Shown piece after piece: positions 138 through 24,975 of a DNA stretch of 24,975 bases (position 1 is its first letter; every line of letters begins with the position of its first letter). Under the pieces are notes generated by a model. The model did not search any database. It saw only the letters and a list, made by a program, of their open reading frames with translations, and was not told the origin of the DNA. This DNA is from a virus. Position numbers and translations under genes: made by a program. The DNA lies in IMG/VR virus record IMGVR_UViG_3300030331_005281, positions 1 to 24,975 of that record; one strand, given 5' to 3'.

Positions 138-1754
138 TTATTGAGGTTGAAGCACGCCAAATCCCGCCGGAAGCGGTTCAAATATCATCCGCTCAATTGG
201 TGATAACTCTGGAGACAGTCCAGATGAAAAGAAGTTTTCGGTTGGGTTCGTGATTGATGTGGGATTACTTTGAACAATAACTGGTGATTCTGGAACTCGT
301 GTGCCAGACAAATTAGCGGCGGCTAATTCATTTTCAACTTGTTGGGCGATTTCTCGTTTTGCAATAACATCGGCAACAAGGGGAACAGACTCAATTCCCA
401 TGTTTCTTCTATCCACCGCTGAAATTTTTGACGCTTGAACGCCGACGATTTTTCCGGTGGTGCTTAATCCTGAACTTGTCATTTCCATAACTTGGGCATT
501 CGTAACTGATTTGTAGAAAGGTGAATTTTTTAATGCCTCAACCACCGCATCTAACCTCTCCTTGCCAACGCTCTGAATGATAGCATCATCTTTTGCAAGT
601 TTAGAAATTTTATCTTTGTAATCGAGGACTAATTTTAAAAGTGCGTCCCTACTTGTTTTTGTCGATCCACCCGGTTGTGCTATTTTAAAGGCTTGATCAT
701 AAATTAAACCCTCCAACTCATTAATCGGAGTGATATATCTTGAAAATAAAGGACCAAGACCTTCGGCTTCGGCGAACTTCGCTAGGGGTGCTACTACCCT
801 CGCACCCGCAACATCACCTAAACTTGTAGCAAAGGGTGATGTTCCACTTCTTCTGTCAAAAACTTGTTGAACCATTTCATCAGGATTTGCCGTGACCCTA
901 CCTTTTTCGTCAAGACCCAATGCTTCACCCTGCTCGTTTGTCCTTGGCGTATTTACATTCGTGAACGCCTCATTCATAGCATCGATATTTCTTTGAAATA
1001 CCCTATCCATCATTGGTGAAAGGACATTATCAAAAAATTTCTTTCCTAATGCAAAAGAGGTAACTGCGGTTGTTAAAGCAGCAGCAGCCGTGCCTAGTGC
1101 GGAGAGAGCGGAGCCAAGACCAGTTATTCCTAGTGTGCTAAGTAAGTTTTTAATCATTGAGAATAGACCACCACCATCTTCTCTAACACTAATCCCCGCG
1201 ATTTTCTTGAGCAAAGGTTCAATTCTTTTTTTCATGTATTTGATGATAGCCCTCGCAGGATTATTTCTCTCGGCTTCCTCCCTTTCCTCTTTTGATTTAA
1301 AACCAAATAATTTACGAACACCACCGAAAGCCTTCTTAAATGTTTCTTTGACATTAAATATTGGCTTGTTTAAGAAGGTACGAATATCACTAAAGACACC
1401 TTTAAAAGTATCCTTCACGTTAAAGATTGGCTTATTTAGAAAGTTGCGGACATCTTTAAATGGCTGAGTAATTTTATCAGTGAGATTAGAGATACTATTT
1501 GATAGTGTTTTTCTAATATCGAAAATAGGTGTTGTGAGAATATTTACCAATGGCTGAAAAACAGCGGCAAAGGACGATGCTTTAAATGCGATACCCTCTT
1601 TGAGAGTTGACTCAATGCCCTTGATGTTCGGGGTGATACCCTTGACAATTTTTTGCAGTTCCGTGTCTTTTACAACAAGTGTCTCTTCCGCAAATTGCGG
1701 AGCGAGGTCTGACAATGCGTTTGCTAATTCTTCTGGTGAAATGTCTTCATCCAT
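138..1754 (-). CDS. Tape-measure or baseplate-hub-like structural protein, 538 aa
   Basis: I do not recognise a named family with certainty. Residues 71-148 carry degenerate copies of the pattern FLNKPIFNVK (cores at 71-84, 104-117 and 126-139). Copies are spaced by 33 and 22 residues, both multiples of 11, which fits a hendecad helical coiled coil. A charged stretch (152-185) follows, then an Ala/Leu/Gly-rich hydrophobic segment (about 203-237), and then a long mixed C-terminal region. Length and design resemble T4 gp29 (tape measure, about 590 aa). It lies directly downstream of the gp26-family gene and its small -1-frame partner, where tailed phages place the tape-measure gene. Its ATG (1752-1754) overlaps the upstream 56-aa gene by 8 nt and has no strong Shine-Dalgarno, so coupled translation is likely. 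The tape-measure role is inferred from repeats and position; another hub or internal virion protein remains possible. Confidence 0.6.
   Translation of the reverse strand: MDEDISPEELANALSDLAPQFAEETLVVKDTELQKIVKGITPNIKGIESTLKEGIAFKASSFAAVFQPLVNILTTPIFDIRKTLSNSISNLTDKITQPFKDVRNFLNKPIFNVKDTFKGVFSDIRTFLNKPIFNVKETFKKAFGGVRKLFGFKSKEEREEAERNNPARAIIKYMKKRIEPLLKKIAGISVREDGGGLFSMIKNLLSTLGITGLGSALSALGTAAAALTTAVTSFALGKKFFDNVLSPMMDRVFQRNIDAMNEAFTNVNTPRTNEQGEALGLDEKGRVTANPDEMVQQVFDRRSGTSPFATSLGDVAGARVVAPLAKFAEAEGLGPLFSRYITPINELEGLIYDQAFKIAQPGGSTKTSRDALLKLVLDYKDKISKLAKDDAIIQSVGKERLDAVVEALKNSPFYKSVTNAQVMEMTSSGLSTTGKIVGVQASKISAVDRRNMGIESVPLVADVIAKREIAQQVENELAAANLSGTRVPESPVIVQSNPTSITNPTENFFSSGLSPELSPIERMIFEPLPAGFGVLQPQ
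1338..1544 (-). repeat. Degenerate 22/33-residue (hendecad) repeats in the 538-aa protein
   Basis: Residues 71-84, 104-117 and 126-139 align as N-(I/F)-L-x-x-P-I-F-(D/N)-(I/V)-(R/K)-x-T-(L/F). The last two copies share FLNKPIFNVK exactly (coding DNA 1413-1442 and 1347-1376). Their codons differ at several positions, so the duplication is not recent or the amino-acid sequence is under selection. The offsets of 33 and 22 residues imply an 11-residue helical periodicity. Confidence 0.75.
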
Positions 1755-1917
1755 GATTATTTTGCTCGTTTCTTTCCTTTAACTCTTTGAGGAACATTGC
1801 CATATAAATTTCTTTTTCCCACGGAATCATATTGTCTACATCACTTTTACTTAGTTTTGCGTGTTTCACAAGATAGTAGCATGTTTGATAGAAAGTTTGT
1901 AACTTTTCATATGACAT
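1747..1917 (-). CDS. Small 56-aa protein downstream of gp26; likely -1 frame extension
   Basis: The ATG at 1915-1917 opens 56 codons ending with TGA at 1747-1749. The gene lies between the gp26-family stop (1920-1922, 2 nt away) and the 538-aa gene, which it overlaps by 8 nt. The product is small, helical and charged, with KSDVDNMIPWEKEIYMAMF at residues 24-42 and a Lys/Glu-rich end. This resembles the second frame of tail-assembly chaperones, where a polar helix follows a 'W/F-E-x-x-I' motif. The only purine-rich Shine-Dalgarno (rc of 1942-1947) is 24 nt from the ATG, too far for normal initiation. It sits instead 9 nt before a T7 slippery run in the end of gp26, in whose -1 frame this gene lies. 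It may therefore be made mainly as a gp26 fusion. In T4 the gene after 26 is 51, but 56 aa is far shorter than T4 gp51, so that name is not applied. Confidence 0.72.
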   Translation of the reverse strand: MSYEKLQTFYQTCYYLVKHAKLSKSDVDNMIPWEKEIYMAMFLKELKERNEQNNHG

Positions 1918-1919
1918 GC

Positions 1920-2615
1920 TTAAGTAAAAAAATTCTCAAGACCCTCCAGTAAAATCTCCTGCTCATGTCCACACACCGGACAATTGATCGTTTGACGAAT
2001 ACAGCACTTGGGGAAGGACTCGACCATTTCAAGAATGGCTTTCACATGTGTCATGGACAATGATTCAATGAATTCACTTCTCTCTTTTACATTATAATCA
2101 CTAAATTTATGTATGCCCTCGTCGGTAAAGATGCTTTCAATCACATAGTGAAGGATCTCGACTGGATTTGTCTCACCGACTTTGGCTACTTGTCCAATGT
2201 GCTTTGCTGGTACGGGTTTCACCGTAACACCAATATTTTGACCAAGCATCACATTTGTGTCTTTTGGATAATCTCCATTCGCAACAATATTGCTCACGTT
2301 TACGGAAACTGGGAATTTTTCGCCGCACTCATTACACTTCCAATTAATATCAATTGTCTCGCCAACCGATCTGGCTCGCATGGAGACAAAAAGATGCTCA
2401 AGGTCACCGTATGAAATGTTGGCAACATCTAGATCACTTTCAACACAATTTGTCACAACCTTAATCATTGAGTCTACAAGGTTTCCAAACTCTGCATTCT
2501 CTGTCATCATCAGCAAGATTTTTTCTTCTTTGACAAGAAAAGGTCTAAACTTTACTCTCTTACCAGAGGGTAGTGTTGTTTCATGTTCGGGAGTCACAAT
2601 TTTTGGTATTGCCAT
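1920..2615 (-). CDS. 26: gp26-family baseplate protein (T4 base plate protein family), 231 aa
   Basis: The N-terminus has the family signature LPSGKRVKFRPFLVKEEKIL (residues 15-34), followed by DLEHLFVSMRARSVGE (71-86), as in T4 gp26-type baseplate assembly proteins of marine T4-like phages. Two CxxC pairs, C94-C97 and C212-C215, look like two halves of a zinc ribbon. In T4, gp26 is needed to assemble the central baseplate hub; a tail-assembly chaperone role is my inference for this family. The ATG at 2613-2615 is preceded by a good Shine-Dalgarno (GAAAGGAT, rc of 2621-2628). The gene lies between the tube-like gene and the 56-aa gene. Its last codons hold the T7 slippery run described separately. 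Family assignment is fairly firm; the biochemical role is not. Confidence 0.82.
   Translation of the reverse strand: MAIPKIVTPEHETTLPSGKRVKFRPFLVKEEKILLMMTENAEFGNLVDSMIKVVTNCVESDLDVANISYGDLEHLFVSMRARSVGETIDINWKCNECGEKFPVSVNVSNIVANGDYPKDTNVMLGQNIGVTVKPVPAKHIGQVAKVGETNPVEILHYVIESIFTDEGIHKFSDYNVKERSEFIESLSMTHVKAILEMVESFPKCCIRQTINCPVCGHEQEILLEGLENFFT
1926..1947 (-). promoter_or_regulatory. Candidate programmed -1 ribosomal frameshift site
   Basis: Read on the minus strand, the end of the gp26-family gene holds an internal Shine-Dalgarno GGAGGG (1942-1947), 9 nt of spacer (1933-1941), then TTTTTTT (1926-1932). The zero-frame codons are AAT TTT TTT ACT TAA, so the heptamer has the canonical X_XXY_YYZ register, with the stop one codon later. 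A -1 slip gives TAC TTA AGC ATG and continues into the 56-aa gene. The fusion would be about 289 residues (230 + YLS + 56). E. coli dnaX uses the same combination of upstream Shine-Dalgarno and slippery run. I see no strong downstream stem-loop. The elements are seen directly; their use is inferred. Confidence 0.6.
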
Positions 2616-2639: not shown

Positions 2640-3332
2640 TTAAAAATCAGGAGGTAGCGGAACGAGATCCGGTGGCACTGGGTTATACGGTGTTTCCGGT
2701 TCTGACGGAGGTTGATTAATAGATTCTGGTTGTGGTGGCAGAGCCACGGGGTCTAAGGTGAGAGCAGGACCAACGATGAATTCTTTGAATGTAAATTCTA
2801 CTGTGAATTGTGTGAGTTCATTTGAGGTTGCATTGTAATCAATACCAGCAACATTTCGAGGATACACCTCTAGAACTAAGTAACTATTGGTTATATTATC
2901 AGAGTGATCGACTTGATTAATAGTCAAACTGGCAGAATAATTGTCCCTATATTCAAATGCTCCAGTGAAGGGGTTGTTTATTCCTTCGATCCAGTTTACA
3001 AATGTGTTCCTAAGTTTTTGCTCTTTGTCTGAAATAAAGGTTAGTGTTAAAGATCCCTCATAATTTCTCTGATATGGGGCTTGAAAAGTAAGAGCCGTGG
3101 ATCTAATGTCAGAGGTTGACAAAGATATTGTTGGAGCAACCACTCTCTGCACTCTTTTTGCAACTGTAGATGCAAATTGTCGATTATCAGCAAAATTGTT
3201 TGCAATCGCTCTCTGAAAAACTGGTGGTATTGTAGGAAATTCACATGTGAAACGAGAATTTAAATGATAACCATCGCTTTTAAAAGACGAAACAAATTCA
3301 TCGATGTTGGATGGTTTGATTGGTTCTGTCAT
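2640..3332 (-). CDS. Tail-tube-fold protein, gp54/gp19-like tube initiator, 230 aa
   Basis: Residues about 25-190 match the T4 tail-tube pattern. RFTCEFPTIP starts the first strand. APYQRNYEGSLTLTFISD (85-102) corresponds to the 'Py-x-x-x-y-x-d-l-x-l-tF' block, LRNTFVNWIEGINN (107-120) to the 'R-x-x-f-x-x-W' helix, then EYRDNYSASLTINQVD (127-142), VYPRNVAGI (156-164) and a final FTVEFTFKEF. T4 has three such proteins: tube gp19 and baseplate tube initiators gp48 and gp54. A gp48 homologue is encoded just across the junction, so gp54 is the likeliest role, although 230 aa lies between gp19 (163) and gp54 (320). Residues 191-230 form a proline-rich tail with 14 prolines in 40 residues, atypical of tube proteins. 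The ATG at 3330-3332 has GGTGGAG upstream and lies 2 nt after the previous stop. Confidence 0.7.
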   Translation of the reverse strand: MTEPIKPSNIDEFVSSFKSDGYHLNSRFTCEFPTIPPVFQRAIANNFADNRQFASTVAKRVQRVVAPTISLSTSDIRSTALTFQAPYQRNYEGSLTLTFISDKEQKLRNTFVNWIEGINNPFTGAFEYRDNYSASLTINQVDHSDNITNSYLVLEVYPRNVAGIDYNATSNELTQFTVEFTFKEFIVGPALTLDPVALPPQPESINQPPSEPETPYNPVPPDLVPLPPDF

Positions 3333-3334
3333 AA

Positions 3335-3937
3335 TTATTCTCCACCAGTATCTAGGAGATTTTTAATAATTTTAGCCCTGCTAAGTAATTGAATGTTTAC
3401 ATAATTTTTCTTCATAAATGCTTTTTCTAGAACCGTTGATAAATCATCAAGGTAAAACTCATCCCACAATTCATGTGATAATTCAAGTCCGTGAATGCTT
3501 GTTCTCCTAAGATCATACTTTCTAATTGCTGGTTCGATAGATGCGTTTAAGACTCTCAACTTTTTCATCATGTCGTAATCTAAGAGTGATCTAGAAAAAG
3601 ATTGTGGGCTGCTAATTTTTGCCTTAAGTCTTTTTAGGACAAGGCTCCTAGTTTTTTCAGGGAGATAGAAGAGATTAAGTCCTGTAAGATAGTGACTTTC
3701 TATGTTCAACGCATAGACACAAGGAAAGAGATGGTAGTATGGCAATTCATCTCTTGTTTTTGGAAAGGTGTATCTAAAAAAGTAAACTCTTCCTCGTGAG
3801 GTTATGTTTTTGGGAATTGATCTTGGAACAACCACCTTCGCCGTTGAGTCATTGATATCCTTAGTTGATTCCTCTGATATACGAGTTCTCAACTGTTTGG
3901 TAATTTCATCAAAAACATCTAATTCTTTATTTACCAA
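3335..3937 (-). CDS. Conserved-looking virion-associated protein of unknown function, 200 aa, TTG start
   Basis: Not recognised as a named T4 gene. The core is residues 48-100, with GRVYFFRYTFPKT (49-61), LPYYHLFPCVY (65-75) and TGLNLFYLPEKTRSLVL (85-101). This looks like a compact folded domain, and I recall similar motifs from unannotated proteins of marine T4-like phages. The C-terminal half is helical and basic. The start is TTG (3935-3937): no ATG exists near the N-terminus, and a purine-rich GGAGAAAG lies about 10 nt upstream. The start is nested inside the end of gp4 (11-nt overlap), implying coupled translation. In T4, gene 2 (DNA end protector) and gene 3 (tail terminator) are close to gene 4, so a head- or tail-completion role is possible, but this is inference from position only. 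Confidence 0.75.
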   Translation of the reverse strand: MVNKELDVFDEITKQLRTRISEESTKDINDSTAKVVVPRSIPKNITSRGRVYFFRYTFPKTRDELPYYHLFPCVYALNIESHYLTGLNLFYLPEKTRSLVLKRLKAKISSPQSFSRSLLDYDMMKKLRVLNASIEPAIRKYDLRRTSIHGLELSHELWDEFYLDDLSTVLEKAFMKKNYVNIQLLSRAKIIKNLLDTGGE

Positions 3938-4364
3938 AGATTTCTTTCTCCGTCAGGATTTTAAATGTCCAACCTTTTCTATCACAAAGTGCCGAAGCCG
4001 CTTCCCATTTTGCCTGATTTGTAAGATACGTCTTAGCCTCGTTTAGAAACTTTTTTGTTTGACGCTTAGGCTTCTTTGGGGGCTGAGTTTGCTTTTTAGG
4101 CTTGACCTCAATCATAACAGTTTCAATTTCACCTTGTTTGTTTTTCATCTCAATAATAAAGTCGGGATAATACTTATGACGTTTTCTATCAACAGGCGAG
4201 AGATACGGTATTGCTATCTCCTCAGATGCCCATTTTGTGACATTGGGATTTTCATCAAAAATCAACATACATTTCCTTTCCCAAAGCGACCTATAAATAA
4301 TTTTGGTAGGGTCGCCCATATATTTTGATTTATTCTTTGGATTGTATCTTCCGCGATATGCCAT
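3927..4364 (-). CDS. 4: Head completion nuclease-like protein gp4, 145 aa
   Basis: Length (145 vs about 150 in T4) and sequence match T4 gp4 (also called gp50/gp65), which acts in the final maturation of DNA-filled heads before tail joining. The N-terminus has the family pattern Y-R-G-x-x-x-P-x-N-x-x-K-Y, then IIYRSLWERKCM (22-33) and W45-x-S-E-E. A PD-(D/E)xK nuclease signature is complete: E48/E49, P67-D68 and E86-V-K88, as in the TnsA-like nuclease fold. A Lys/Pro-rich linker (88-105) and a helical C-terminus follow. It is first in the minus-strand cluster and divergent from gp48, with 20 nt between start codons. In T4 gene 4 is followed directly by gene 53, so the neighbourhood is kept but this gene is inverted. 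The ATG at 4362-4364 has no visible Shine-Dalgarno. The plus-strand late promoter lies inside this gene. Confidence 0.9.
   Translation of the reverse strand: MAYRGRYNPKNKSKYMGDPTKIIYRSLWERKCMLIFDENPNVTKWASEEIAIPYLSPVDRKRHKYYPDFIIEMKNKQGEIETVMIEVKPKKQTQPPKKPKRQTKKFLNEAKTYLTNQAKWEAASALCDRKGWTFKILTEKEIFGK
4292..4299 (+). promoter_or_regulatory. T4-type late promoter (TATAAATA)
   Basis: An exact match to the T4 late-promoter consensus TATAAATA lies on the plus strand inside gp4. Transcription would start near 4305-4310, giving an untranslated leader of about 75-80 nt before the gp48 ATG at 4385. I found no other exact match on either strand of the window. The right-hand genes follow one another with gaps of at most 15 nt, so this promoter could drive the whole plus-strand run beyond the right edge. 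Late promoters of this kind are read by host RNA polymerase with phage gp55/gp33/gp45, which are not encoded here. Confidence 0.75.
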
Positions 4365-4384
4365 ACATATATTTAGGAGTTATC

Positions 4385-5515
4385 ATGCCGATTGAAGAAA
4401 ACGATAATTTTTTAGGACTAGACGTATCTGGGAGTATCGAGGGGTCGTTTGGTGACGCACAGGTAATTAACAGAACAAGGGATTTTCACCGTGTCAATCC
4501 TAACAGCCTAAGACCCGATGGAATTCCGGTTTTAAAAGATTTAACTTTTCCCTCTGAAGTAAATTCGACAAATTTTAATAAATCACCAGATTCAATTTTT
4601 CAATACGTTAGATTTCAAGCGTTTCAAAGAACATCAAATAATTTTAGACTCAGTATTGATGCCAATACAGCGTTGCAAACTTTAAATCCTTCGGATGTTG
4701 ATATTGATTTAACTGACACAAATGATCAGAACTTGGCAATTGAAGACCAACAAGGCAATGGAAATATCCAAGCAACATTTCTGAGCGGCTTTAGCCCCGC
4801 TGCGGGTCAACTTATTAATCAAGGCGGTGATCGTAGATTTGGTAGGATAACAAATGAGAAACCTAGTGATACAGTCAAACTCTACATTCCTAATGAACTA
4901 TCTCTCACGGACAATGTTGAGTATGTTACAGAAAGCACTGGGGATGTTGGTAGAATTTTGGAGGGAATTCTTGGCGGTAATAGTAAAGATCGAATCAAAG
5001 ATGCAGTTCAACTTGGACTCTTAAAAAAGTTGGATGGTTTAGCGTCTAATTTTGTGGATGGTCTAGACCAAAGTATCAGAGCAAGATTTGGATTTGCTAA
5101 AAACCCAAGAGAAGAGGGACTTTTCAAAAATACGACCTTAAAGAACTTCGATATGAAATTTACATTTTCACCTAGAAACAAGACCGAAGTTGAAATCGTA
5201 TACAATATCATCGAGGTTTTTCGTTTTCACATGATGCCTGAGTTGTCAAAGTCTTCTTTTGTATTGTTCTCCCCCGCAGAATTTGAAATTGATTTTTTGT
5301 ACGCCGATTATAGCGATCCAGTTAAACCAGAGTTTGTAGAAAATACCTCCTTGCCAAAATTGGGTCGGTGTTTCCTTAAAAGTGTAACAGTTGATTATTC
5401 ACCTAATGTTAAATCAGCGTTTTTAAAAGATGGAACCGCAGCAGAAATTTCGATAAATCTTAACTTCATGCAAGCGGCTCACCTCAACAGACAAATGATT
5501 GCGAAGGGGTTCTAA
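4385..5515 (+). CDS. 48: Baseplate tail-tube cap gp48, 376 aa
   Basis: The C-terminal half carries the gp48 signature: NPREEGLFKN (240-249), FDMKFTFSPRNKTEVEIVYN (255-274), FRFHMMPEL (279-287), SPAEFEIDFLY (297-307), then a conserved strand pattern ending in a hydrophobic NLNFMQAAHLNRQMIAKGF. T4 gp48 is 364 aa. It sits on top of the gp27 hub and, with gp54, initiates polymerisation of the gp19 tail tube. The N-terminal 100 residues are polar and less conserved. The start at 4385 is chosen because TAGGAG (4374-4379) lies 5 nt upstream; in-frame starts further upstream have no such site and would overlap gp4. The last base of its TAA is the first base of the gp53 ATG. It is the first gene behind the late promoter at 4292. 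Confidence 0.88.
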   Translation: MPIEENDNFLGLDVSGSIEGSFGDAQVINRTRDFHRVNPNSLRPDGIPVLKDLTFPSEVNSTNFNKSPDSIFQYVRFQAFQRTSNNFRLSIDANTALQTLNPSDVDIDLTDTNDQNLAIEDQQGNGNIQATFLSGFSPAAGQLINQGGDRRFGRITNEKPSDTVKLYIPNELSLTDNVEYVTESTGDVGRILEGILGGNSKDRIKDAVQLGLLKKLDGLASNFVDGLDQSIRARFGFAKNPREEGLFKNTTLKNFDMKFTFSPRNKTEVEIVYNIIEVFRFHMMPELSKSSFVLFSPAEFEIDFLYADYSDPVKPEFVENTSLPKLGRCFLKSVTVDYSPNVKSAFLKDGTAAEISINLNFMQAAHLNRQMIAKGF

Positions 5516-8777: not shown

Positions 8778-9395
8778 ATGTCGCAATACACACAAACCAT
8801 ACCAATTACAGATAAGACTGATGACGAATATTATAATTTTTTAAAATCATCTGGATTTAGAATTTTTGAATTTCAAGAGGAGCCAGAGTACGCAGAAACT
8901 TACGACTCATGGAGAGGTAAAGGTCCTTCAGCAAGATATCATTTTGTTGAGATGATTACAGAAAATGGTCACAACATCCCTAGACCACTGAAAGATTTTG
9001 AAATCACCCAATTCCATCCCGATCTTACTTTAGAAAAAATAAGTTTTCTTAGATCACTCTACAACTTAAACTCTAGGACAAGACCTTTTAAACGACCGAT
9101 GCAGATTAGCAAATCTGGGTTGCCGGAAAGCGATAAAAATAAAATTAAAGCGGACATTGAAACTTTTTACAATACAGTTAAAAGAATAGCACCTTTGATA
9201 ATTCGTGACATCCCGACTTATGTTGCAGCGAGTTTAGACAATAGACCGGCAGCACTTATCGGTACATCAATAAAAACAGTTTCAATTAACCCACCAACTC
9301 GCCCGGAAGTTGGTGATTTATGGTTTAACTCTGGCAAAGGAAAATACTTTGCCTTTCTTGCAGATGGCAAGGCTAAATATTGGGTGGAGGTCTGA
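8778..9395 (+). CDS. Baseplate-associated protein of unknown function, 205 aa
   Basis: Not recognised as a named family. It is soluble, with no signal or membrane segment. The N-terminal half is aromatic and charged (YYNFLKSSGFRIFEFQEEPE, residues 18-37). Residues 110-150 are helical. The last 35 residues (PTRPEVGDLWFNSGKGKYFAFLADGKAKYWVEV) contain 'P-x-x-P-x-x-G-D-L-W-F-(N/D)-S', a small β-element common in phage tail fibres and adhesins, where it ends in W-V. It lies between spike gp5 and PAAR, and its TGA overlaps the PAAR start (TGATG). It could decorate the spike, act as spike chaperone or link to peripheral fibres; the sequence does not decide. The start at 8778 has a modest AGGT 4 nt upstream. 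Confidence 0.8.
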   Translation: MSQYTQTIPITDKTDDEYYNFLKSSGFRIFEFQEEPEYAETYDSWRGKGPSARYHFVEMITENGHNIPRPLKDFEITQFHPDLTLEKISFLRSLYNLNSRTRPFKRPMQISKSGLPESDKNKIKADIETFYNTVKRIAPLIIRDIPTYVAASLDNRPAALIGTSIKTVSINPPTRPEVGDLWFNSGKGKYFAFLADGKAKYWVEV

Positions 9396-9661
9396 TGTCG
9401 TTATGCGTAGCAAGATATGGTGATGTTTGTGGTGGTGCGATTTTCGCTGGAGCAAGCACCGTTTTAACAAACGGGCGACCAACAGCACAAATCTATAATG
9501 CTGTTGCTGGTCATGGCGATTGTCCACACTGTGCGCCGGTGACAGTGGGTGCTTCTGGTACGGTATTCGCTGAGGGTCAGCCAGTCCATAGATTTTCCGA
9601 TGCTTGTTCATGTGGTCACTCCACATCAACAGGCTCACCAAACGTATTCGCAGGAGGATAA
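9395..9661 (+). CDS. PAAR-domain spike tip protein (gp5.4-like), 88 aa
   Basis: The whole protein is one PAAR domain: MSLCVARYGDVCGGAIFAGA, then NGRPTAQIYNAVAGHG (26-41), a central GTVFAEGQPVHRFSDACSCG (55-74) and the terminal TGSPNVFAGG. PAAR proteins form the sharp, metal-bound cone on contractile-tail spikes, as T4 gp5.4 does on gp5. Potential ligands are unusually many: C4, C12, H40, C43, H45, C46, H65, C71, C73 and H75, whereas typical PAAR tips use three His and one Cys. The start at 9395 is chosen because GGTGGAGG (9383-9390) precedes it and the ATG overlaps the previous TGA; an in-frame TTG at 9380 would add five residues to the family N-terminus. It lies one gene downstream of gp5, its predicted partner. 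Confidence 0.92.
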   Translation: MSLCVARYGDVCGGAIFAGASTVLTNGRPTAQIYNAVAGHGDCPHCAPVTVGASGTVFAEGQPVHRFSDACSCGHSTSTGSPNVFAGG

Positions 9662-9662
9662 T

Positions 9663-10433
9663 ATGTCATTGTTTGATCCACAATTGGTGAACACAAGTGG
9701 TTGCGAGTTGCCAACATTGCCGCTCACACCACAACAAAATGAAATTTTACAAAAAGTAATTAGCGGTGAATTTTTACAAAGTCCACTTGAGGGTATCAAT
9801 AATCTCGCCACAGAGACTATTGGAGATTTGATTGACGGGGTGGGTGATCTGGTGGTTGCGGATGGTGACCGTGATAAGTTAGATCGTATTCAAGATATTT
9901 TATCGGGTGCTAGTGAAGAATTAACAAATATGGCTTTCCATGCCGATAGGTTAGCGGGTGTTGACGCAAACCCGCAAAACATTCAAGGTCTTCAAGGCAT
10001 TCAATCTATTGCGAGAACCTTCAATAATTTTAAAAACTCAATTGAGGGTGGGACGATTGGAGAGGATCTCGTTGATTATTACACACCTTTCTTTAGTAGT
10101 GTATTAGGACCGGGGACTACAAATTTTGAAATCATCAAGGGACTCTTAACTGGTGATTTTACAAATGCCTTAGTAAATGCACAAGCCGCCGGTATCGCAG
10201 ATTCCGAAACGATTGATAACCTGTTGAGCATTTCAGAGAGCATAGATCAAATCACTGGACAATTGAATGCTATTCGCTTAAGTGATGAAGAAGCCTTGGC
10301 TGGTGCTTTGGACTATCTCGCAAAAACGGGTCTTGGGTTCTCGGTGCTAGGGATGGCAGAAGACCCCTGTTTTAGCCAAAAAGTTTTACAAAATATTGTA
10401 AATCCAGACTTAAAAGGATTACTTAATCTATAA
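9663..10433 (+). CDS. Uncharacterised tail/baseplate protein, 256 aa
   Basis: No named family is recognised. The protein is acidic, almost entirely helical and rich in Leu/Ile/Asn/Gly. A Pro-containing N-terminus (SLFDPQLVNTSGCELPTLPL) is followed by amphipathic helices. Residues about 95-150 have a motif, TNMAFHADRLAGV...QGLQGIQSIARTFN, that I recall from unnamed structural proteins lying near gp25 in other marine T4-like phages. Two cysteines are present, one near each end. No signal peptide or membrane span is visible. The start at 9663 is chosen because AGGAGG (9652-9657) lies 5 nt upstream, whereas in-frame codons back to 9549 overlap the PAAR gene. It lies between the spike tip and wedge gene 25, so a role in baseplate or spike assembly is the likeliest inference. 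Confidence 0.8.
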   Translation: MSLFDPQLVNTSGCELPTLPLTPQQNEILQKVISGEFLQSPLEGINNLATETIGDLIDGVGDLVVADGDRDKLDRIQDILSGASEELTNMAFHADRLAGVDANPQNIQGLQGIQSIARTFNNFKNSIEGGTIGEDLVDYYTPFFSSVLGPGTTNFEIIKGLLTGDFTNALVNAQAAGIADSETIDNLLSISESIDQITGQLNAIRLSDEEALAGALDYLAKTGLGFSVLGMAEDPCFSQKVLQNIVNPDLKGLLNL

Positions 10434-22866: not shown

Positions 22867-24975
22867 ATGGCTCAACCACCAACCCCCGGAAATACTTTAG
22901 CAAGTCTATTAACCAGCGATACATTTCGCACTTGGTTTGATAGGTCAAACCAAATCATTGGTTTAGTAAATCCAATCGAAGTTTATGGCATCACCAACGA
23001 TGTTCTTCTTCCCGGTATTACTTTCTCTATTGATTCTGATGGTATTGCAAATCTTGGCTTGTCTTTGCCCGGATACATTACGGGTGACTTTATTTTCGGT
23101 GGCGGAATTACCTTTGAGGGTGATATCATTACATTCACTGGTAACACGGTGGACTTTGGTGGTGCAACTTTAGCAGGTAGAGTCGTAAGAACAGTGAATG
23201 GTATGACCGGAGATGTTGTCATCTCTGGAGCAGGTCTTAATCTTCCCGCTGGTATCACGACCGGCGATATTCTCGTTTATGACGCAGCAGGAGAGACACT
23301 CGAAAAATTTAGTCTTTTCACTGGCGGAACATTTGAAAATAATTATATTAATTTTGCCAACACGGGTGGCATGATTCTTGGTGCAGCCACTCAGGACGCA
23401 GGTAACTTCCGTCCCGGCTCCATTCAACTCATGGGTGGTGGAACCTCATCAATTCTTTTCCGCGACACAACCTACACTGGTAATGTCGTTAGACGTATTG
23501 GAACATTTATCACTCATAAAGTCGAAGGTGATAATGTTTTCTTTAGAATTCAAGGTGGCGACACAAGCGGTAATTTTGACACTGACACCAACGCTCCATA
23601 CATCACGATTGAAGGAAGCGATAGAGAAATAGGTATTCTTGGTATTACCATACCCGAGGCTCCGATTCACTATCTTAGTCGAAGTGGAGTAAGTGCTGAC
23701 ATTGTTTTACAACTTGATGGTAAAACAGCAGGTATTGGTATCGGAAAAGATAACGACGGTGACTTAGATTTAGATTTATATCCAGATCAAAGACTTCGTG
23801 TTATTTTAAATAAAACAAATAAAGAAGCCTTTCTTGAGGTAGAAGGATCTCATGGAGAGGGTAGAAAAAACGTATTCAAAGTTGGACAAACTGGCGATGT
23901 TATCATCGGTGGTGATCTAAGAACAGATGGTAGTACGCTTGGCGCACTGAATCTTGCGAGTGGTTCGCTCTATGTTGGTGGTAGAACTGGTGCTGCGAAC
24001 ACAGTCTTGATCTCAAACGGAGTTACAGTAGATTGGGGTGACATGGCAGGTGGTTTTGAGCAAGCACTTGTTCAAGATGCCGATGGTAATTATAATAGTA
24101 ATACCGCTACAACCGGAACAATTACAGGTCTTCAACTTAATAGAGGTAAAAATGTTTCAATTACAGGGAGTATTGTTGACGGAAACACCTTGGGTATCAC
24201 CATCGGGTCTTTCGTGCAATCAAAAACTCTCGCAGAAACTATCACAAACGAATCTGAAAGAATTGAATTTGCAGTTGATCCAGCGTTGGCTGATATTCAA
24301 ACTCTCGATGGCACTGATGACGATGGCACTAGATTCCGTCGATACACATTCCCTAAAGGTGGAGCAGGTGGTAGTGGTCTACAAGGATACAAATTCCTTT
24401 TAGGACAACTTTCAGGAACCAATGCAGGTAGGCTTGTCACAACTGGACTTGGTGATGAAAAAACTTTAAGCATTGACGCTAGAACAATTGATGGCAAAAA
24501 TATTGAACATTATCTTCGTCAAATTCAAGCCGCACCGGGAGGTGGTAGTAAAATTTATGTGCTTTGGGATGAGGATCAAGGTTCAAACCCAAGCACTGAT
24601 AATTATGCCTACGTTATTAGACCACATGAAATTACAACAAGCACGCTAACAGATTCCTCTGGTGGAACAAGACCTGCTTTCCAGTTCAAAGGATTCCCCG
24701 ATGTAGATCCAAGTTGGGCTGACGGTTCTGGTGGTTCTGATGAAGATAAGTCTGTTTACATGTTCTTTGATCAAAACCACGGTGCTACTGGGTCTGGATT
24801 TGAATCCGCATCAGTTAAGAAAAACACCGCCACGGATCTTGCTTTAGTTGGTAATGGTATTAATCGTATCTCTTTGATTGGTGGCGTTGGTGTTACCATC
24901 GAAGGGGCATTCACCTCTACTGAGCAGTTTGGCTCAACCGCGTCCTTTACCTTTACCGCTGTTGGTCTTTCAGGT
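22867..24975 (+). CDS. Tail fibre protein, N-terminal 703 aa (partial at window edge)
   Basis: An ATG at 22867, preceded by TAGGAATAA and 12 nt after the previous stop, opens a frame that stays open to the last base (703 codons). The N-terminus has the anchor pattern of long marine phage fibres: LTSDTFRTWFDRSNQIIGLV (15-34) and NPIEVYGI (35-42). VNGMTGDVVISG (110-121) is the common 'V-N-G-x-T-G-x-V' fibre element. The rest is Gly/Thr/Asn-rich β-repeat sequence with GDVIIGGDL- and GGRTGAANTVL-type blocks, low in Cys. It would be a trimeric fibre or adhesin attached to the baseplate periphery, built after the 1829-aa protein. The receptor-binding end lies outside the window, so neither full length nor host range can be judged. 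Confidence 0.85.
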   Translation, partial: MAQPPTPGNTLASLLTSDTFRTWFDRSNQIIGLVNPIEVYGITNDVLLPGITFSIDSDGIANLGLSLPGYITGDFIFGGGITFEGDIITFTGNTVDFGGATLAGRVVRTVNGMTGDVVISGAGLNLPAGITTGDILVYDAAGETLEKFSLFTGGTFENNYINFANTGGMILGAATQDAGNFRPGSIQLMGGGTSSILFRDTTYTGNVVRRIGTFITHKVEGDNVFFRIQGGDTSGNFDTDTNAPYITIEGSDREIGILGITIPEAPIHYLSRSGVSADIVLQLDGKTAGIGIGKDNDGDLDLDLYPDQRLRVILNKTNKEAFLEVEGSHGEGRKNVFKVGQTGDVIIGGDLRTDGSTLGALNLASGSLYVGGRTGAANTVLISNGVTVDWGDMAGGFEQALVQDADGNYNSNTATTGTITGLQLNRGKNVSITGSIVDGNTLGITIGSFVQSKTLAETITNESERIEFAVDPALADIQTLDGTDDDGTRFRRYTFPKGGAGGSGLQGYKFLLGQLSGTNAGRLVTTGLGDEKTLSIDARTIDGKNIEHYLRQIQAAPGGGSKIYVLWDEDQGSNPSTDNYAYVIRPHEITTSTLTDSSGGTRPAFQFKGFPDVDPSWADGSGGSDEDKSVYMFFDQNHGATGSGFESASVKKNTATDLALVGNGINRISLIGGVGVTIEGAFTSTEQFGSTASFTFTAVGLSG

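Follow-up and report, generated by a model that had tools for sequence, protein, structure and literature searches.

The window, by which we mean the whole 24,975-nucleotide stretch of viral DNA analysed here, carries on its minus strand, in this order, genes for a TnsA-like head-closure protein (gp4-type), a DNA end protector (gp2-type), a tail-tube-like protein and a gp26-family protein, followed by a 56-residue gp51-type frame and a 538-residue tape-measure-like protein (Table 1). The gp26 product matches PF12322 (T4_baseplate) with an E value of 1.2e-49 and 169.4 bits, against a Pfam gathering cut-off of 24.5, along positions 2–218 of the 219-position profile, and it matches phrog_150 at E 8.6e-50. 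The small frame matches phrog_634, 'baseplate hub assembly catalyst' (E 1.3e-15), as well as the C-terminal positions 239–282 of phrog_150 (E 4e-5), and the gene downstream of it gives a partial match to phrog_1272, 'tail length tape measure protein' (E 7e-9).

Table 1. Features of the gp26/gp51 locus in the window
Feature	Positions	Strand	Basis
gp26-family gene, short chaperone form (TAC-N), 231 aa	1920–2615	minus	PF12322, phrog_150, predicted fold
GGAGGG, Shine–Dalgarno-like block 9 nt 5′ of the slippery run	1942–1947	minus	sequence
T_TTT_TTT slippery heptamer	1926–1932	minus	sequence; conservation in relatives
Zero-frame stop TAA, one codon past the heptamer	1920–1922	minus	sequence
−1 frame, gp51-type C-terminal extension, 59 residues (56 from ATG 1917)	1747–1926	minus	phrog_634, phrog_150
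Tape-measure-like gene, 538 aa	138–1754	minus	phrog_1272; start overlaps end of −1 frame
Tail-tube-like / tube-initiator gene directly upstream of gp26	2640–3332	minus	phrog_45 tail tube, E 8e-29

The gp26 gene closes with the codons AAT (1934–1932), TTT (1931–1929), TTT (1928–1926), ACT (1925–1923) and TAA (1922–1920); on the minus strand its 3′ end reads GGAGGG TCTTGAGAA T TTT TTT ACT TAA, then GC ATG. The heptamer T_TTT_TTT (1932–1926) sits in the X_XXY_YYZ register of the gp26 zero frame. A slip of one base backwards at the heptamer leads into TAC TTA AGC ATG TCA and onwards, with no stop until TGA at 1749–1747. The predicted −1 fusion has about 289 residues in all, with the junction ENFF-YLSMSYEK, and its product would span ...ENFFYLSMSYEK... 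The ATG at 1917 starts 2 nt beyond the gp26 stop in the window phage and its close relatives (TAAGCATG). A sequence-only reading of the window had described a slippery run in canonical register with the stop one codon later, a −1 frame leading into the 56-residue frame, and a tape-measure-like next gene; the minus-strand coordinates, the open −1 frame and the partial phrog_1272 match bear out these points.

The gp26 protein (1920–2615, minus) contains two CxxC pairs, WKCNECG and INCPVCG, and gives weak matches to zinc-ribbon families; the cysteines of these pairs are lost in some cyanophage-type relatives. Elsewhere in the window, the gene blocks at 4325–5515 (plus) and 3927–4364 (minus) are divergent, and the ORF caller gave the tube-cap gene a TTG start that makes it overlap the opposite-strand head-closure gene; the true start probably lies further in. 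Three ORFs on the plus strand within or adjoining a baseplate gene cluster (8778–9395, 9549–10433 and 22867–24975) gave no PHROG hit at E 1e-4.

IMG/VR and the records of isolate phages supplied the gp26-encoding loci, and the gp26 3′ end was read in each. An in-register T_TTT_TTN ends the gene in 166 of 170 distinct loci, a proportion that describes a sample seeded from gp26 relatives of the window and of marine phages, not all gp26 genes. The seventh base of the heptamer is C in 125 of these loci, T in 39 and A in 2, and the distance from heptamer to stop is 0, 3 or 6 nt in all 166. T_TTT_TTN occurs within the last 12 codons of none of 394 other ORFs (at least 120 codons) from the same gp26 loci. 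An in-register heptamer at the end of gp26 is far above chance. Beyond the stop, the −1 frame is open for at least 120 nt in 162 of the 166 relatives (six frames are cut by contig ends) and codes for a conserved domain. The same split arrangement is present in complete isolate genomes, for example those of S-RIM50, P-HM2, phiM19, ACP17 and Marzo.

The residue preceding the Phe-Phe pair varies (S, D, N, A, G, H or R), and the third base of its codon is T in every one of the 166 loci (AGT, TCT, GAT, AAT, GCT, GGT, CAT or CGT); NNT TTT is thereby observed in 166 of 166, against approximately 72 expected from residue identity and codon usage. Among 77 cyanophage-type relatives, TTT TTC is invariant at the site, and the five-codon window containing Phe-Phe has the lowest synonymous variability of the gp26 gene, with a relative synonymous diversity of 0.49 compared with a mean of 0.89. 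The remainder of the gp26 gene of Acidovorax phage ACP17 uses TTC nine times and TTT not once, yet its site reads GAT TTT TTC. Judged from codon choice, the slippery codons are under selection beyond the constraint imposed by the protein. The idea that the T run is a product of low GC content was rejected, as GC-rich phages keep the site.

Phages that encode gp51 separately provide a natural control. Gene 51 of T4 is a separate gene on the strand opposite to gp26, and a separate gp51 is found likewise in e11/2, Ac42, ECD7, IME13 and phiP4-3 (Straboviridae). At the gp26 end of these phages, T4 included, there is neither a heptamer nor a gp51-like −1 frame, and the Phe-Phe region of T4 gp26 reads GAG TTC TTT. 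In two other Straboviridae, phiAS5 and S13, gp26 is followed by a −1 frame that codes for the gp51 domain, and the site reads GAT TTT TTC. The absence of the site from phages with a separate gp51 and its presence in phiAS5 and S13 indicate that it occurs where the long form has to be made from the gp26 gene. The T4-type gp51 of e11/2 is composed of the PF12322 gp26 domain (residues 1–201, E 6e-55) and the gp51 C-domain, and T4 gp51 aligns with a virtual −1 fusion profile of the same composition, built from mainly marine loci. On this evidence, T4 gp51 is the naturally fused, full-length form.

A structure model of gp26, built from a 53-sequence alignment, was predicted confidently (mean pLDDT 92.5). 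The best structural matches of model residues 1–93 are 3fgx (Z 7.5), the HK97 tail assembly chaperone 2ob9 (Z 7.2) and YqbN, 3klu (Z 6.8); these matches (VIA) cover 83–84 residues, and a Z of about 7 lies in the middling range of the tool's own scale. They are followed by 5ir0 (Z 5.3) and then by unrelated folds with Z of at most 4.5. A Foldseek search of the PDB with the gp26 model gave no significant match (best E 0.19; 2ob9 at E 2.0, probability 0.44), and the matches listed from a viral structure library are mostly other gp26-like proteins and unnamed or uncharacterised ones. The modelled N-domain is suggestive of a fold like that of tail assembly chaperones (TACs), represented by HK97 gp13 and YqbN. 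The gene also occupies the TAC position, between the tube-like phrog_45 gene upstream and the tape-measure-like phrog_1272 gene (partial match) downstream, and at the level of sequence it comes with a short form and a C-terminally extended long form, the latter in the −1 frame here and as a separate long gp51 in the T4 type. Fold, gene order and this short/long architecture together support a role as tail assembly chaperone; T4 gp26 and gp51 have been classed as hub assembly chaperones (PMC3004832). Against the likeness to lambda, whose TACs leave the virion, a Dickeya phage record labels its gp26 relative a 'confirmed structural protein'.

It is highly likely that this single gene yields a short and a long tail chaperone form through −1 ribosomal frameshifting on T_TTT_TTT. 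Most ribosomes would terminate at the zero-frame stop to give the 231-residue gp26, the short form. We infer that a minority of ribosomes, holding tRNA-Phe in both sites at the heptamer, slip back by one base, bypass TAA and append the 59-residue gp51-type domain, giving the 289-residue fusion as the long form. If the parallel with lambda gpG and gpGT holds, the gp26 moiety would wrap the tape-measure protein, whose gene comes next, and the less abundant C-terminal domain would bring in components of the tail tube or baseplate hub. The comparative evidence supports this mechanism well, so that it very probably operates, and the proposal of the sequence-only reading that a lambda G/GT-like architecture makes gp26/gp51 a TAC system gains strong support from the relatives. 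The G/GT arrangement of lambda is found here at a T4-type gp26/gp51 locus, with T_TTT_TTT in place of the G_GGA_AAG slippery sequence of lambda. Unlike lambda gpG, gp26 of the window has an additional part bearing the CxxC pairs, and its extension is 59 residues long; the likeness drawn here is one of architecture.

The GGAGGG block (1947–1942) is separate from the T run, at a distance of 9 nt, a spacing about like that of the Shine–Dalgarno sequence that stimulates −1 frameshifting in dnaX. GAGG, GGAG or AAGG is present at −15 to −13 in most relatives, and 8 relatives are without such a tetramer. The GG of the block belongs to a conserved Gly codon in an E-G-L peptide, and T4 gp26, despite lacking a frameshift site, also has GLxxFF with the Gly conserved. 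Because the Gly codon is conserved in T4 gp26 as well, conservation of the block does not prove function, and it was dropped as independent evidence. The sequence-only reading had named the block as a dnaX-like element and proposed a check on whether related phages conserve the T run, the −1 relation and the Shine–Dalgarno: the block is present in the window and may stimulate slippage, and the heptamer and the −1 frame are widely kept, but the conservation of the tetramer is incomplete and confounded with the peptide. A search of the window for a downstream RNA stimulator found a 7-bp stem whose fold is not significant (z −0.94).

Separate products could also arise if ribosomes terminated at TAA (1922–1920) and restarted at the ATG at 1917, giving gp26 and gp51 with no fusion needed. 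The position of this ATG, the same in L001–L003, would permit a free 56-residue gp51 to be made by stop-coupled reinitiation; an ATG precedes the conserved core in 101 of 160 relatives, and an ATG, GTG or TTG in 124, and those Ackermannviridae and Vibrio relatives that have TAATG overlaps are without the slippery heptamer. In 36 of the 160 relatives, however, the −1 frame offers none of the start codons ATG, GTG and TTG ahead of the conserved core. Given the ATG 2 nt past the stop in the window phage, the earlier statement that the small frame lacks a well-placed start signal holds only in part. Reinitiation moreover leaves unexplained both the invariant NNT TTT TTY and the loss of these codons where gp51 is a separate complete gene, and T4 gp51 is itself the fused form. 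As a substitute for frameshifting it is improbable, although it may add to frameshifting without replacing it as the explanation.

Slippage of the RNA polymerase on the T run, rather than of the ribosome, would place the fusion in the mRNA, and the homopolymeric T7 of the window suits such an origin. The run consists of only six T in 127 of the 166 loci, usually ending in C, and six-T runs are shorter than those known to support efficient transcriptional slippage; nor would slippage in transcription need a fixed codon register, yet the register of the heptamer is fixed. We regard this origin as very improbable. Homopolymers are also error-prone in sequencing, and the split could in principle reflect a sequencing or assembly indel within the T run of one fused gene. 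The recurrence of the same arrangement in 166 distinct loci, complete isolate genomes among them and most with only six T, refutes such an error, the probability of which is negligible. Ribosomal frameshifting on the heptamer is preferred.

In the Ackermannviridae and related Vibrio phages, the −1 frame still codes for a gp51-like domain, but the T run ahead of it is shorter (mostly xTT TTC) and the heptamer is missing, as read at the gp26 ends in L015 (near 2002), L019 (near 1939), L016 (near 1870), L178–L182 and L184. TAATG overlaps are seen in CRW-SP2, AG3, Limestone1 and Vibrio YC, K413 and K475, and ATT or ATA stands where the ATG would be in Kuttervirus and Taipeivirus examples and in Nezavisimistyvirus (Bue1 is among such phages); the Kuttervirus site reads GAA ATT TTC ATT TAA. 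These phages might use a non-canonical slip of one tRNA (ATT_TTC) or a non-AUG coupled start, a tentative reading that we consider possible and somewhat doubtful. If it is true, the family would have three routes to a long or second chaperone form: by frameshifting, from a fused gene of its own, or by expression that is coupled or non-canonical.

The frameshift of the G–T type has been described as conserved in long-tailed phages 'except T4' (Atkins et al. 2016, PMC5009743), and the sequence-only reading knew of no described case at a T4-type gp26 locus. According to two citing papers (PMC10885494, PMC12846349), T4-like TAC genes were identified by Vladimirov, Gautam and Davidson (2022, Virology 566:9–15). 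The PRFect paper (PMC10885494) cites that work for some T4-like phages having a short gene and a fused long gene; in the paper on phage Adele (PMC12846349) it is the source given for poly-T slippery sequences in T4-like TAC-N genes. As represented there, the T4-like TACs have short and long forms and a poly-T site in the short-form gene, as does the locus analysed here, and on the domain evidence presented above we read them to be gp26 and gp51. The T4-like TAC frameshift has thus already been published, going by these citations; the mechanism put forward for the window is very probably correct, and the claim of novelty is not supported. In Vandenendeviridae and Andersonviridae, which are other phage families, the TAC likewise has a −1 continuation and a T-rich conserved motif (GTTTTT; PMC12846349), whereas the slippery site here is T_TTT_TTY.

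The long form of T4 is encoded by a separate gene on the opposite strand, whereas in the window the long-form domain lies in the −1 frame directly after gp26. A frameshift site is present in most of the sampled gp26/gp51 loci, and T4 and its close relatives are without the site but have a separate fused gp51; this comparison bears on the long-standing view of T4 as an exception to the conserved tail-chaperone frameshift (PMC5009743). It also touches on annotation. In cyanophage and other T4-type genomes, many of the short annotated gp51 genes resemble pieces of a frameshift product that were given a wrong start, and re-annotation is advised. In P-HM2, gp51 is annotated at 30 residues, with its annotated start deep within the −1 domain. 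Published gp51 annotations of two cyanophages and of phiAS5 (L007:1989–2081, L006:1962–2099 and L014:1986–2108) take their start from within, or near the end of, the conserved domain; they have the look of truncations produced by the search for a start codon. In the Taipeivirus and Kuttervirus records that were read, the gp51-like domain is wholly unannotated.
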